Shown here piece by piece: positions 7,962 through 19,821 of a stretch of DNA of 22,185 nucleotides. The DNA lies in the IMG/VR virus record IMGVR_UViG_3300046360_000173, positions 1-22,185 of that record. One strand, 5' to 3'. Each line of letters opens with the position of its first letter. The stretch's first letter is position 1. The stretch comes from a virus. Made by a program: the position numbers and the translations under genes. Under the pieces are notes generated by a model. The model saw nothing but the letters and a program-made list of their open reading frames with translations, had not been told where the DNA came from and ran no database searches.

Positions 7962-9852
<1,891 letters not shown>

Positions 9853-11212: not shown

Positions 11213-11848
11213 ATGATTAATACAACAATAGGTAATTGGTTCATTATTGGCGAAGAATTAAATAGAATAAGAAAAAATGGTGTAAAACATTACAGATGTA
11301 TATGCACTTGCGGATTAGAATCAATAAAAACTAAATTTAGTATATATAAAACTAATGCATGTATTAAATGCTCAATCAATAAAAGATCAAAGCCTAATTT
11401 ACTACCAGGTCAAATTTTTGGTAAATGGACTATTGCAAAACTAGATGATTCTATAAAAAATAGTGAACGATATTATACATGTTTATGTTCTTGCGGAAAC
11501 AGCTCTTCAATAAGGGGATCAGTTCTTAGAGGAAATAAATCAAAAGAGTGTGAAACATGTAGAGTTTCAACCCATAAAATGTCCAGACATCCTTTATATA
11601 GAATTTGGAATGCTATGAATCAAAGGTGTTATAACCAAAATAATAAAGGTTATAAAAACTATGGTGGAAGAGGTATAAAGGTATGCGATTCATGGCATAC
11701 CTTTATAAACTTCTTCAATGATATGGGGCAAAAACCTGTAGGATTATCAATAGATCGTATCGATAATGACGGTAATTATGAACCTTCTAATTGTCGATGG
11801 GCAACTGCAAAAGAGCAGGCAAACAACCAAAGAAGACGTAAAAACTAA
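11213..11848 (+). CDS. Free-standing HNH homing endonuclease with two zinc ribbons
   Basis: 211 residues, the only convincing plus-strand gene. Two similar N-terminal modules follow the G.xxxWxI pattern: GNWFIIGE with Cys29/31/33 and Cys50/53, and GKWTIAKL with Cys90/92/94 and Cys113/116. The C-terminal nuclease contains HPLYRIW, YGGRGIKVCDSW, SIDRIDNDGNYEPSNCRWAT and KEQANNQRRRKN, the usual HNH arrangement in phage homing enzymes. It would nick or cut DNA to spread its own gene. Its stop overlaps the scaffold stop tail-to-tail by 3 nt. It has its own promoter and points against every neighbour, which suggests recent insertion. The ribosome site is weak. Confidence 0.9.
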   Translation: MINTTIGNWFIIGEELNRIRKNGVKHYRCICTCGLESIKTKFSIYKTNACIKCSINKRSKPNLLPGQIFGKWTIAKLDDSIKNSERYYTCLCSCGNSSSIRGSVLRGNKSKECETCRVSTHKMSRHPLYRIWNAMNQRCYNQNNKGYKNYGGRGIKVCDSWHTFINFFNDMGQKPVGLSIDRIDNDGNYEPSNCRWATAKEQANNQRRRKN

Positions 11849-14293: not shown

Positions 14294-16357
14294 CTAGCTT
14301 ACTTGACCAGGGACTGGTTTCGCAAGTTCTTGTTGTTCGACTTGTGAGGCATTAATTTCTTGCTGTTTTAAAGCAGAGGCCATATTCAATAAACGTTCAA
14401 TATGTCCAAGATCCATATCTTCAAGTTCCTTAAGCGCTTTAATCTTATCTAACATAGCTCTTTCATCATTAGCATTTGCCTCATGAAGTTTCTGAATCGC
14501 AAGAGCACGATTCTCTTCAACTCGAGATGTTCGTTCGTTATATAATCCTTCATCAGCTTTAGCTCGGGCATGAGTAAGTTCAATTTGAGCCTGTTGTAAT
14601 TGCATAGCCATTTCAGCTTGTTGTTGTTGCAACTGACTTTGAGCTTGTTCTGCTTTTGTAAGATTATCAATAATGCGTTGCTTGTTTTGTAATGTTGCTG
14701 CTTCAAGTAGATCTTCAGGAGAAATAGGAACACCCATCTCTTTAAGTTGTAGCATTTGAGCAAATTGCATTTGCTTTTGAGTAGATGTATTTAATCCTTC
14801 TTCAACATCTGCATGATATTTACCAAAAGCTTTATTATGGAACTGTTCAGTCGGTTCTTCACCCTCAAGAATCTTCTTAATCTTACCAGGAGTAAAGTTA
14901 GCTTGTATAATATCAATCATCAACTTGCCTAAAAGCTTCTGGGATCGATCAAGTTGATCAAAAAGTGATTGTAATGTTGTTAAACCAGCGCTTTGCCGTA
15001 ACATGCTTAAAATACCAGCTTTGTCATCGATCGCACTGCCGAGTAGCTCATCGTTTACTCCCGACACCTCTTGAATTTCTTTAGCTAAAAGTTCTGAAAG
15101 TTGAATCATGGATGGTGGTATTTGTGGTGCTTGTATTTGCTGAACGTCTTGCATTGATGCATCTGTTTTTAGAGCAAGTCCACGACCTTGTCCAGATAAA
15201 AATACATCTTTTGGATTAACAAGAGCATTCTCTTTATAAATCCATCCCGAATTAATTTGGGATTCTAGAATATCCAATTCTATGACACGACGTCGGTTAT
15301 ATAAATATTGTGCATCTCGCAATCCACGAACAACACCTTGGATTCGCCAAGGGAAATAGGGCATTTGAGGGGCGTAGTAAGCCAACACAGGAACAAAAGG
15401 ATATTGATCAATACCCATAGGATTCGGGCCGTCATACATTACCTTTCCTTGAACTACAATCGCCATTCTTACAGTTGGTATTTCTTGCTCAATCATGGTG
15501 ACTGAAGGATATGTTTGTAAAAATAACTCTAAACGATCATCTTTATCATTTTTCCACTCCATGGTCTCACCGGTTTCTGAATCAACAAGCATCTTCTGCG
15601 TTCGATAATCACGATAATAAAACTCATCATATGTTAGAAGATTCTTCATACCATAGTTATATGATTCAGGCATAAACTGAAACTTACCATCACGACCAGT
15701 TCCAGAATCCAATCCAATAAGACCAATGATCTCTTCTGATTTATCTGGTAAGAGTGATATACATTCACGTTTGGTTAAGAATGATCTTTTCCATAAAGCA
15801 TTACAATCAGAAAGATCAGTCTTGCGAAAATAAGGATCAATAAGAAATGAATTATATGAACAGTTATCAACTTTTATATTCCCCGAAACAGGATCACTTC
15901 TATAATCCACCCAAACTTGTAATAGATTCATACCAGTTACAAGAGCACCATGAAATGATTCTGATATCGTATCTAAGATGCCTTCTTGGTTGACACACCA
16001 CATAAGAACTTTAGTAAACTGATCTGAAGTAACATTGTCAGCATTTTCGATAGGAACAGCAATAATAGATTTTCGATTACGGCGTTGATGTCCAGATATC
16101 ATATTTATGACACGACGTATACGGTTAAAGTTGAACTGACGTTTGCGATTTGCCGGCAGATTACCATACAAATCATTCCATAAAGTTTGATCACCTGATT
16201 CAAAACGAGTGTCTGTATCTGCTTCACCCCAAAAACTCTGATTAATGGTAATACTTTGTGCATAGAACGCTTCCATGCGGGCTAAAATATCTTGATGCTT
16301 CTCATCGTAATATTGCGGGCCCAATTGTGGAAATAAAATAGCACACCTCCCTTCCAT
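14294..16357 (-). CDS. Portal protein, P22-like
   Basis: 687 residues from the ATG, close to P22 portal length. It forms the ring through which DNA enters and leaves the head. Visible: FNFNRIRRVINMISGHQRRN (~74-93), ALVTGMNLLQVWVDYRSD, the stem-region sequence PYFPWRIQGVVRGLRDAQYL, and SGVNDELLGSAIDDKAGILS. A long Gln/Glu/Ala-rich helical C-terminus (from ~560) resembles a barrel or coiled coil. The start is uncertain: the ATG at 16357 has no ribosome site, while GGGAGG within the first codons lies 6 nt before an in-frame ATT at 16339. That ribosome site can pair with a sequence 50 nt upstream. Confidence 0.93.
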   Translation of the reverse strand: MEGRCAILFPQLGPQYYDEKHQDILARMEAFYAQSITINQSFWGEADTDTRFESGDQTLWNDLYGNLPANRKRQFNFNRIRRVINMISGHQRRNRKSIIAVPIENADNVTSDQFTKVLMWCVNQEGILDTISESFHGALVTGMNLLQVWVDYRSDPVSGNIKVDNCSYNSFLIDPYFRKTDLSDCNALWKRSFLTKRECISLLPDKSEEIIGLIGLDSGTGRDGKFQFMPESYNYGMKNLLTYDEFYYRDYRTQKMLVDSETGETMEWKNDKDDRLELFLQTYPSVTMIEQEIPTVRMAIVVQGKVMYDGPNPMGIDQYPFVPVLAYYAPQMPYFPWRIQGVVRGLRDAQYLYNRRRVIELDILESQINSGWIYKENALVNPKDVFLSGQGRGLALKTDASMQDVQQIQAPQIPPSMIQLSELLAKEIQEVSGVNDELLGSAIDDKAGILSMLRQSAGLTTLQSLFDQLDRSQKLLGKLMIDIIQANFTPGKIKKILEGEEPTEQFHNKAFGKYHADVEEGLNTSTQKQMQFAQMLQLKEMGVPISPEDLLEAATLQNKQRIIDNLTKAEQAQSQLQQQQAEMAMQLQQAQIELTHARAKADEGLYNERTSRVEENRALAIQKLHEANANDERAMLDKIKALKELEDMDLGHIERLLNMASALKQQEINASQVEQQELAKPVPGQVS

Positions 16358-16787: not shown

Positions 16788-17009
16788 TTATGTCCTATAA
16801 CTACACTGTGGATAAATCTTAGCTATTTTCATATGACACTTAATACATTTCTCTGGATGAGTTCCACGTAAATAGTTATTTCTAATGTCTGTCTTTGTTG
16901 TACCACATTCACATTGCACAATCACACCAAATGATCCTCGAACCTTTTTATCAAGCTCTTCTATGACCGTCCATTTACCGTACTTATTACCAAGTATAGA
17001 TATCATCAT
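16788..17009 (-). CDS. Stand-alone zinc-ribbon module, HNH-associated type
   Basis: 73 residues. It opens MMISILGNKYGKWTVIEEL, then VQCECGTTK and CIKC: Cys pairs in the order CxCxxC/G ... CxxC. The same module occurs twice in front of the nuclease in the plus-strand HNH enzyme (11213-11848), and again in the protein at 17384-17611. Here the reading frame ends right after the module with no nuclease domain. It might be a remnant of an endonuclease or a small DNA-binding regulator. AAGGA lies before the start, and the ligase-like gene precedes it by 4 nt. Confidence 0.75.
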   Translation of the reverse strand: MMISILGNKYGKWTVIEELDKKVRGSFGVIVQCECGTTKTDIRNNYLRGTHPEKCIKCHMKIAKIYPQCSYRT

Positions 17010-17013
17010 ATCC

Positions 17014-17382
17014 TTATTGCATAGTATAAAGTGATTCTATTTCTGAGAGAGTTGTCGCATGTTCAGGATTCTTATCCTGTCTTATTCTAATAAACTTAGG
17101 TTTTATGATAAAGAAAGGTGATCTCTTCGATTGTGATGCTTCTATACGATCATAAGAAACTTCCATTACAATCTTAGGATATACATAAAACTCACATGGA
17201 ATCATACAAACAATTCTATGATCTTTGATACTTGTTTTATGTATATATTGAGACATTGTATCATCTTTAAATGATTTTATGAGTCCAATAGAAATAAATT
17301 CATCTTGCTTATCATCATAACAAGCCAATATAAATCTATTATCTTCAAATCCAATGAATACTAAATCTAATGTATCCATCAT
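17014..17382 (-). CDS. Stand-alone OB-fold domain of an ATP-dependent DNA ligase
   Basis: 122 residues (121 if the second Met is used). The whole protein aligns by eye with the C-terminal OB domain of ATP-dependent ligases: LDLVFIGFED at the start (LDLVVIG in ligase I), RFILACYDDKQDEFISIG, KIVMEVSYDRIEAS, then PKFIRIRQDKNPEHATTLSE, where RQDK (101-104) is nucleotidyltransferase motif VI. The adenylation domain with the catalytic Lys is absent, and nothing like it precedes the gene, which begins 1 nt after a zinc-ribbon stop. Alone it cannot ligate. It could complement a separate adenylation subunit, bind nicked DNA, or be a relic. Confidence 0.8.
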   Translation of the reverse strand: MMDTLDLVFIGFEDNRFILACYDDKQDEFISIGLIKSFKDDTMSQYIHKTSIKDHRIVCMIPCEFYVYPKIVMEVSYDRIEASQSKRSPFFIIKPKFIRIRQDKNPEHATTLSEIESLYTMQ

Positions 17383-17383
17383 T

Positions 17384-17611
17384 TTATTCTAAAACTCTCG
17401 GAAATATTGAAAACATCTTATGTATCTTACGAGCACATTTAGAACATTTATCAGGTGGATTAGTTTTTATAAAGAAATATTTAGCCATGATACGTATAGT
17501 TCCACACCTACACTGACATGTAACAATATCACGTCCATGCTTTCTTTTACCACTATCATCAATAATGGTCCATACTCCAAACTTCTCTCCAGTAATATTC
17601 CTAGGTTCCAT
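17384..17611 (-). CDS. Stand-alone zinc-ribbon module, HNH-associated type
   Basis: 75 residues. EKFGVWTIIDD (9-19) followed by VTCQCRCGT and DKCSKCARK gives the same GxWTI plus CxCxC...CxxC pattern as the N-terminal modules of the plus-strand HNH enzyme and as the protein at 16788-17009. No nuclease domain follows. Its ATG overlaps the terminase stop by one base (TAATG), so it is translated together with the intein-bearing terminase. The likely activity is DNA binding (family knowledge of these zinc ribbons); the biological role is unknown. Confidence 0.75.
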   Translation of the reverse strand: MEPRNITGEKFGVWTIIDDSGKRKHGRDIVTCQCRCGTIRIMAKYFFIKTNPPDKCSKCARKIHKMFSIFPRVLE

Positions 17612-19821
17612 TAGTAAATCCTATGATTATCGTTAAAGAATCCTTGCCCTATTCCTAATCCATCACTCCCATAACCCTGTGCTTGGCGATAACGTTTCTC
17701 AATGTCCTCTGCCGTTGATTGTTCATCACGGGATCGACTTAAAGATAAAACAAGATACCTAAAAGCATCTGCATAATGAGAGTTGTGAACTATGGCACCA
17801 TTCGCTAACGAAAAATGATGCGCATCCTCAACTTCAATATCATAAACATTCTGCTTTTCGTTTAGCAATCTTACCGATTCTATAATGAGTGGCTTTGCAG
17901 TTGGTATGGCAGAATTTTTGACTATGCGGCCCTTTATTAACCAATCCTTCAAATATTCTTCCACACTGAAGACATTCCATTGGAATTCGTTCTCGCTTCT
18001 CCCATGATTTGCATCTAACCGCTTGATTAGAATGCCATTTTCTTCCTTCTTCAGAACTATGCCATTCTGCAGTCTTATCCCTTGCAAGCTTAGACAATCC
18101 CTTTCCATTAGGTCTAGGATGCTTAAGATGTTCAAACCTTGGTAAACATTCCAAGTTATCAAGTCTATTGTTTTTTGGATCATTGTCCTTGTGGTGTATA
18201 TCACATTCTGGTGGAATTGTACCGAAAGCAGACTTCCAGACATCTCTATGTAATCTTGATCCGCCCCTAGAGAAATACTTTTCATTGGGCCATATTTTAT
18301 ACAATGATCCTGAGAAGTATGTTGTGACTGTATCGACGAGGATTGGATCACTGTATTCTTTGTTAGGGATTCTGCTGATTTCCAACCGTTTTCCGTTAGA
18401 AATAAATGCTCCGGCGTACATTTCACTTTCGTACCGTCTTGGAATGTTACTTCCACAAGATCCGCATTTTCCTTCGACATCCATGATGCTTTGCATTTCT
18501 TCCACCCTTTTAATGTTAATAATTCATCACCTATATTAACATCCATAATACGACGCATTCCGGTACGCGTCAACAAAAGAGTATCTCCAACAAAGCAGTT
18601 ATTATCATGCAGCGGTTTCTCTCTATAAACTTTGCGCTTTTCATCAAACTCTTGTCGATAATTCTCAAGAGCTCTAATTAATGGTTTGCAACGCTCTTCA
18701 TCAAACCACATCTTTGGTAAAGCAGATCGAACTGCTTCGATACCATCTTCAATTGATAACATAGGAAGAGCAGATTTAGTTCCTGCTTCACGAGTTTCAA
18801 ACTTTAAACCTAACTGCTTTGCTTTCTCTAAACGAGTCAATCCTGATCCAAATTCTTTAACAGCAATATCATGAGGAGCCCAATGCTTATCGTACTGATA
18901 AGGCTTATCCATAACAATATTAACATAGTGCTCTAATCCTTCTTTGTTCTTCTCATAACAATCAATGATATGAACAACTTGTCCTATAATCTGAAAGAAT
19001 ATTATACACGTAGAATCTCGAACACCGATATCAAAAGCTGTTGAAACTCTAAATTGTGGTTCCCATCTGACTTTTCCAATCTGGCCATTAAGTCTTAACT
19101 TATCAATATATTTAGCATAATAAGAACCTTCAGCTCCTTGATCAAAGGAACAATAATATTCTTGTTGTACTAAATCAGGACTTACAAGACCATCATCAAT
19201 ATCTTGTTGAATCATTTCGATGGGAATATGTTTTGTATCTGCAAGGCTTAACTTTTGGCAAAACCATTCAGATGAATATTGAGAAATATTATACATATTC
19301 CAAAACTCATTCTTACCTCGAGGAGTTGAAACTATAATAACAGAGCCACCATTAGCATTAATAATAGGCATAACAAACTTAAAAGCATCGGGATCTGCAA
19401 GCGCAAACTCAGAAAAAACTAACATACGAGGATTAGTACCAACAAGAGAGGTATCATATGAATCAGATCCAATAATTTGAATAATAGATCCATTAACAAG
19501 TGTTATCTTCAACTCTTGAGAATTCGTTGCTTTAACAAGCTCTGGTGGTATAAAGTCTATGAAACGCATCCCATCGTTCGTAATAGAATCCCAAATAACT
19601 TTACGACCTTGTGAGAATGTAGGAAGAGCATACATATAGACGCCAACTTTTCTAACTGCTTGTCGTATCATAAGATTCCAACAAACAATGTCTTTGCCTG
19701 ACCTTCGACCCCATACAAGCAGCATTTTCTTAAAGCCTCTATTCTCAAAGGCGTCACAAGCAGCTAATTGATATGGTCGAGGTTGAAACTTATCGAGATG
19801 AATCTCCGTCATTATACTCAT
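17611..19821 (-). CDS. terL: Terminase large subunit with an intein
   Basis: 736 residues as a precursor; about 464 after removal of the intein (residues 409-680). TerL pumps DNA into the head and cuts it. ATPase: Walker A WGRRSGKD (37-44), Walker B MLVFSE (133-138), coupling motif VSTPRGK (164-170). Nuclease: FDIG with Asp264, HDIA with Asp318, and HYADAF with Asp685, the last just after the intein. GGGAG lies 5 nt before the ATG. The start overlaps the preceding small gene by 32 nt. Until spliced, the third nuclease motif is separated from the rest, so the precursor should be inactive as a nuclease. Confidence 0.95.
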   Translation of the reverse strand: MSIMTEIHLDKFQPRPYQLAACDAFENRGFKKMLLVWGRRSGKDIVCWNLMIRQAVRKVGVYMYALPTFSQGRKVIWDSITNDGMRFIDFIPPELVKATNSQELKITLVNGSIIQIIGSDSYDTSLVGTNPRMLVFSEFALADPDAFKFVMPIINANGGSVIIVSTPRGKNEFWNMYNISQYSSEWFCQKLSLADTKHIPIEMIQQDIDDGLVSPDLVQQEYYCSFDQGAEGSYYAKYIDKLRLNGQIGKVRWEPQFRVSTAFDIGVRDSTCIIFFQIIGQVVHIIDCYEKNKEGLEHYVNIVMDKPYQYDKHWAPHDIAVKEFGSGLTRLEKAKQLGLKFETREAGTKSALPMLSIEDGIEAVRSALPKMWFDEERCKPLIRALENYRQEFDEKRKVYREKPLHDNNCFVGDTLLLTRTGMRRIMDVNIGDELLTLKGWKKCKASWMSKENADLVEVTFQDGTKVKCTPEHLFLTENGWKSAESLTKNTVIQSSSIQSQHTSQDHCIKYGPMKSISLGADQDYIEMSGSLLSVQFHQNVIYTTRTMIQKTIDLITWNVYQGLNILSILDLMERDCLSLQGIRLQNGIVLKKEENGILIKRLDANHGRSENEFQWNVFSVEEYLKDWLIKGRIVKNSAIPTAKPLIIESVRLLNEKQNVYDIEVEDAHHFSLANGAIVHNSHYADAFRYLVLSLSRSRDEQSTAEDIEKRYRQAQGYGSDGLGIGQGFFNDNHRIY
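17782..18597 (-). mobile_element. Intein in TerL with an endonuclease gene in another frame
   Basis: 272 residues between Asn408 and Ser681 of the precursor. Block A starts at Cys409 (CFVGDTLLLTRTG). Block B is GTKVKCTPEHLFLT with Thr and His in place. Block F is NVYDIEVEDAHHFSL. Block G is AIVHN, followed by Ser as the +1 residue. All splicing residues are present. The central ~150 residues match no endonuclease in this frame; the DNA there encodes an HNH enzyme in another frame. The insertion point, just before the third nuclease motif of TerL, is a highly conserved site, typical for inteins. Confidence 0.93.
17840..18496 (-). CDS. HNH homing endonuclease nested out of frame inside the intein
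   Basis: 218 residues from the ATG at 18496, which has AAAAGGG 8 nt upstream; a GTG at 18505 is also possible. Its codons are shifted by 2 nt relative to TerL. The convincing part starts near residue 57: SLYKIWPNEKYFSRGG, LHRDVW (His83), CDIHHKDNDPKNN with His101/His102 and Asn109/110, DNLECL. A C-terminal zinc finger has Cys175, Cys178, Cys196, Cys200. The first ~55 residues overlap intein block B and may only be a by-product of that constraint. The enzyme would cut intein-free terL genes and drive intein spread. Separate translation is inferred from the ribosome site. Confidence 0.88.
   Translation of the reverse strand: MQSIMDVEGKCGSCGSNIPRRYESEMYAGAFISNGKRLEISRIPNKEYSDPILVDTVTTYFSGSLYKIWPNEKYFSRGGSRLHRDVWKSAFGTIPPECDIHHKDNDPKNNRLDNLECLPRFEHLKHPRPNGKGLSKLARDKTAEWHSSEEGRKWHSNQAVRCKSWEKRERIPMECLQCGRIFEGLVNKGPHSQKFCHTNCKATHYRIGKIAKRKAECL

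Follow-up and report, generated by a model that had tools for sequence, protein, structure and literature searches.

A DNA ligase normally has its OB domain firmly joined to the catalytic domain: when 29 Asgard archaeal genomes were scanned for PF04679, none of the 46 matches lay in an open frame of less than 214 residues. What, then, is a free-standing ligase-type OB domain doing in the packaging operon of a phage? Such a gene is present in the virus record IMGVR_UViG_3300046360_000173, of which the whole stretch of 22,185 nt (positions 1 to 22,185; hereafter the window) was analysed. A free OB module that carries motif VI and is under selection would make it possible to test if this motif can act in trans during DNA ligation, and would illustrate how single enzyme domains are reused by phages. 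Sequence comparison, including that with a second, fairly distant phage in which selection has preserved the gene, identifies the OB gene in the window as a functional piece lacking the catalytic half and not as a relic.

Identity and boundaries of the OB gene

An earlier, sequence-only reading of the locus had matched the 122-residue product of the gene (which includes FIRIRQDKNPEHATT) over its whole length to the C-terminal domain of ATP-dependent DNA ligases and had proposed a profile check, and this check indeed places the protein in the ligase OB family. The Pfam model DNA_ligase_A_C (PF04679) is matched at profile positions 7-94 of 94 (E=3.9e-7) with 30.8 bits, which passes the curated cut-off of 27.5 bits, while the orthologue from a second phage described below (23.2 bits) stays under it. 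In a phmmer search of the PDB, the OB domain of archaeal ligases is matched by residues 2-122 (E=1.8e-13 for 2cfm, the P. furiosus ligase), and residues 872-899 of human LIG1 are matched by residues 94-121. Compared profile to profile with the OB domains of 24 archaeal ligases, the protein reached 99.7% across all 122 columns, the reversed-sequence control scoring at noise level. Motif VI, likewise noted in the earlier reading, is present as RQDK (residues 101-104).

The full-length ligase model TIGR00574 is covered only at positions 382-526 of 527. Since the N-terminus MMDTLDLV aligns with the start of the OB domain, just past the motif-V linker (compare YSEGMMDTLDLVVVG in a Thorarchaeota ligase), the gene is a domain-exact piece. 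These alignments show that it descends from the OB domain at the C-terminal end of an ATP-dependent DNA ligase of the LigI/archaeal type, being homologous over its whole length, and that it was cut at the natural hinge following motif V. AlphaFold models of the protein are poor (pLDDT 46-47); a Foldseek search with the first of these low-confidence models returned ligase chains at ranks 1-30, with a best E of 2.6e-3 and low TM-scores, and so lends the assignment weak support. A TIR-like PADLOC match (E=0.006), obtained for the window copy only, was set aside.

Genomic context

The window represents a phage late operon on the minus strand, comprising genes for the terminase large subunit (TerL), portal, GroES/GroEL and structural proteins. 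Coordinates of the OB gene, its neighbours and the residues discussed below are collected in Table 1.

Table 1 Features of the OB locus in the window
Feature	Position	Strand	Remarks
TerL gene with intein	17611..19821	-	operon gene upstream of OB gene
Orphan zinc-ribbon gene zf1 (75 aa)	17384..17611	-	1 base upstream of OB gene; start codon overlaps TerL stop
Stand-alone ligase-type OB-domain gene (122 aa)	17014..17382	-	ATG start; Pfam, PDB, profile-profile and TIGR00574 matches
Junction (aa 16/17), ligase GxGxRxxxxG loop deleted	17332..17337	-	from alignment with ligase OB domains
IKPK (aa 93-96) at the site of ligase RFPR	17095..17106	-	corresponds to LIG1 residues 871-874
Motif VI RQDK (aa 101-104)	17071..17082	-	R, D and K in both phage copies
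Orphan zinc-ribbon gene zf2 (73 aa)	16788..17009	-	downstream of OB gene
Portal protein gene	14294..16357	-	closes accessory slot

The two immediate neighbours, zf1 and zf2, are related to the N-terminal zinc-ribbon repeats of an HNH protein encoded at 11213-11848, and neither contains an HNH domain itself. The immediate neighbours are not the homing enzymes that had been assumed nearby, even though an HNH reading frame does sit within the TerL intein. Proteins of the zf type also occur in other relatives that lack the OB gene, and this orphan family without HNH is conserved between TerL and portal (window 16788-17009 and 17384-17611, L001:5246-5488, L058:9723-9941, L067:4467-4691). Among the HNH proteins themselves, the domain order can be reversed: at L054:393-1220 the HNH domain precedes the zinc ribbons, whereas the zinc ribbons come first at 11213-11848 of the window.

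Several further features of the operon were recorded. GroEL (546 aa) and GroES-like (85 aa) genes lie at 7962-9852 on the minus strand and are both found in L001 as well. The TerL intein of the window (Intein_splicing, E=1.4e-13) is missing from the TerL of L001. Inside it, in a different frame, runs the HNH endonuclease ORF (17840-18505, minus strand, 221 aa; HNH_3, E=4.6e-14), so that both frames are open across 666 bases of the intein. When synonymous codons were shuffled with the HNH protein fixed, the TerL frame stayed open in 0.5% of cases, and with TerL fixed the HNH frame stayed open in 0 of 20,000; possibly, this ORF is an out-of-frame nested homing endonuclease. The portal gene of the nearest long relative (L058:9977-12261) is broken into two ORFs of 466 and 257 aa, and in the TerL-portal slot at L018:302-1715 a peptide of the TerL C-terminal region in another frame (MAYRPKIWTEDIMKLCLALRQICHGFLE) is near-repeated at two ORF starts.

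Absence of a catalytic half

The earlier reading had also stated that the catalytic domain is missing and that the flanking genes leave no room for it. Both statements hold. The adenylation domain PF01068 was matched neither in the 22,185-base record nor in any of 50 related phage records gathered by portal and structural-gene similarity, several of them 38-42 kb long, and no NAD-dependent ligase (PF01653) was present in 30 records (the window and 29 related ones). The protein begins past the motif-V boundary, and with no PF01068 match in the record, the KxDG lysine and motifs I-V of a complete ligase are absent. As the intergenic gaps on the two sides of the gene amount to 1 and 4 bases, the missing domain cannot hide beside it. 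A search of the window for a frameshifted or displaced adenylation domain was equally negative.

These results bear on the idea of a true split ligase, in which a separate adenylation domain would be encoded by the same phage beyond this contig. Retention of motif VI would fit such an arrangement, and both OB-bearing records are fragments (22.2 kb for the window, 15.0 kb for L001) compared with 38-42 kb for the longest relatives; within these two fragments, no nucleotidyltransferase without an OB domain of its own was found. Moreover, stand-alone nucleotidyltransferase genes do exist in two relatives. One of them, at L010:4835-5395, encodes a 186-aa RNA-ligase-like protein with KxDGT and KIKRRDFG motifs in the TerL-portal slot; the other (G044:C1:28495-29046; L100:4490-5128) is again RNA-ligase-like and in G044 lies upstream of TerL. 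Neither the L010 nor the G044 protein, however, belongs to PF01068, and in none of the related records examined does such a gene occur together with the OB gene. PF01068 is absent from all 50 related records, and the 39.6-kb relative nearest by TerL carries neither the OB nor the adenylation half. A split ligase is a possibility, at a probability below that of the two main readings of function given below.

A conserved orthologue under selection

A second phage, L001 (IMGVR_UViG_3300048796_000102), carries an intact orthologue of 119 aa with 61 of 118 aligned residues identical. Here, too, the OB gene stands alone, with the same gene boundaries and in the TerL-portal interval; its start overlaps the TerL stop by 1 base, and a zinc-ribbon gene and then the portal gene follow. 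Comparison of the two OB genes by the Nei-Gojobori method (NG86) yielded a dN of 0.415 and a dS of 1.2, the latter being near saturation, so that the resulting dN/dS of ~0.35 is approximate. When neutral drift was crudely simulated, 1.2% of trials kept an open frame at 0.3 draws per site, and 0.02% did so at 1.2.

The suggestion that the gene is a relic, that is, a decaying fragment of a captured ligase gene, could draw on the lack of an adenylation domain and on the AT-rich composition (27.9% GC vs 36% for TerL). Because of the intact orthologue at the same locus and with the same boundaries, and because of the dN/dS of ~0.35, this option was discarded as very improbable, the simulated neutral chance of an open frame being only about 1e-2 to 2e-4. 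Hence, the comparison of both genes shows a real, selectively maintained stand-alone accessory gene under purifying selection.

The gene is rare, with two copies known. Searches of viral contigs, annotated phages and plasmids for further copies, using OB queries and motif patterns, returned L001 only and no third copy, and a scan with the archaeal OB alignment gave nothing. In genome contigs, the sole match was a full-length Thorarchaeota ligase.

Residues kept and lost

In DNA ligases, motif VI orients ATP on the catalytic domain and thereby serves step 1 of the reaction (adenylation), while another face of the OB domain meets the DNA. Both phage copies retain the RxDK of motif VI (R101, D103, K104), of which R and K are present in 24 and D in 21 of the 24 ligases compared, as well as the ATT following it. 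Of the 37 positions invariant in ligases, 17 are retained by both copies; core positions D6, V8, P69, E74 and S83 are among the residues that both have kept. Conservation between the two copies is highest in the C-terminal segment bearing motif VI (22 of 36 residues identical) and in the N-terminal strands. The conserved RFPR and GxGxR loop of the PF04679 family, on the other hand, are found in neither copy. In LIG1, F872 is reported to insert into the minor groove and to push against the 5' terminus at the nick (PMC11418127); the corresponding RF pair (LIG1 R871/F872) is replaced by IK in the window and by VN in L001. The GxGxRxxxxG loop, found in nearly all compared ligases, is gone from both copies, as is the invariant Glu at position 79. 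Additionally, the L001 protein is strongly acidic (net charge -16, pI 4.2; range of ligase OB domains -9 to +1), while the window protein is ordinary (net charge -3, pI 5.6).

The losses of RF, loop and Glu and the acidity of the L001 copy argue against a plain nick-binding factor. The earlier suggestion of such a factor acting with homing enzymes is further weakened by the lack of HNH domains in the neighbouring genes. Since motif VI is kept and DNA-facing residues are lost, the pattern, as seen in two sequences, speaks more for contact with a nucleotidyltransferase than for nick binding by the protein alone.

Proposed function

Taken together, we favour a reading in which the OB module has a separate covalent nucleotidyltransferase as its target in trans, i.e. 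a host ligase or an enzyme encoded in a part of the phage outside the sequenced one. For docking, the module would offer the face that bears motif VI and that in an intact ligase assists adenylation of the catalytic lysine. Nick sealing would thereby be supplemented or modulated late in infection, around packaging, in place of nick binding by the OB domain alone. We give this reading a probability of roughly one in three. It is consistent with the full-length homology, the synteny and identical boundaries in L001, selection, the kept motif VI, the lost DNA-facing residues and the acidic L001 copy, and with the isolated nucleotidyltransferases of two relatives, of which that in L010 occupies the TerL-portal slot. 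Against it, the two halves never occur together in a relative, the nucleotidyltransferases found in isolation resemble RNA ligases and are not PF01068, and confidence in the structure model is low. Conservation of motif VI is judged from a single pair of OB copies, and the residues of the motif might be kept for folding instead.

Nearly as likely is a DNA-binding or TerL-associated role in packaging, which we regard as a tentative possibility: the OB domain would be a domesticated accessory of the packaging operon that binds dsDNA, its ends or TerL/portal, without involving a nucleotidyltransferase. That the gene lies between TerL and portal in either phage, that the L001 start codon overlaps the TerL stop and that the neighbouring zinc ribbons are probably DNA-binding agrees with this. 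Both copies have nevertheless lost the minor-groove RF pair as well as the Gly/Arg loop, a pI of 4.2 in L001 fits DNA binding poorly, and position says little, as the accessory slot from TerL to portal is variable in this phage group and holds unrelated genes in other relatives.

Returning to the trans-acting module, a still more doubtful proposal is that the phage's free-standing motif-VI OB subunit, docking in trans on a nucleotidyltransferase, forms a bipartite or hijacked DNA ligase.

Comparison with known systems

To our knowledge, an OB domain acting in trans in this manner is found only in trypanosome RNA-editing ligases. There, the OB fold is supplied to TbREL1 in trans by KREPA2, strongly stimulating adenylylation and ligation (PMC4366279), a precedent that was counted in favour of the trans-acting reading. 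The pairs of KREPA2/KREPA1 with TbREL1/TbREL2 resemble the phage case in that the OB fold is encoded apart from the nucleotidyltransferase (PMC4366279), but they act on RNA and with a known partner. With LigI and archaeal ligases (PF04679; TIGR00574), the phage protein shares homology over its 122 residues, the motif VI RxDK, ATT and the beta-strand core, whereas it lacks their adenylation and DNA-binding domains and has lost the GxGxR loop, RFPR and the invariant Glu. Minimal phage and bacterial ligases such as T7 ligase, Lig E and Chlorella virus ligase contain a comparable OB domain, which in their case is fused to the adenylation domain. Finally, the RLIG1/RNA-ligase-like nucleotidyltransferases of L010 and G044 are orphan ligase-related domains as well, the L010 copy even occupying the TerL-portal slot; they differ in representing the complementary catalytic half, in being RNA-ligase-like and in never being found with the OB gene.
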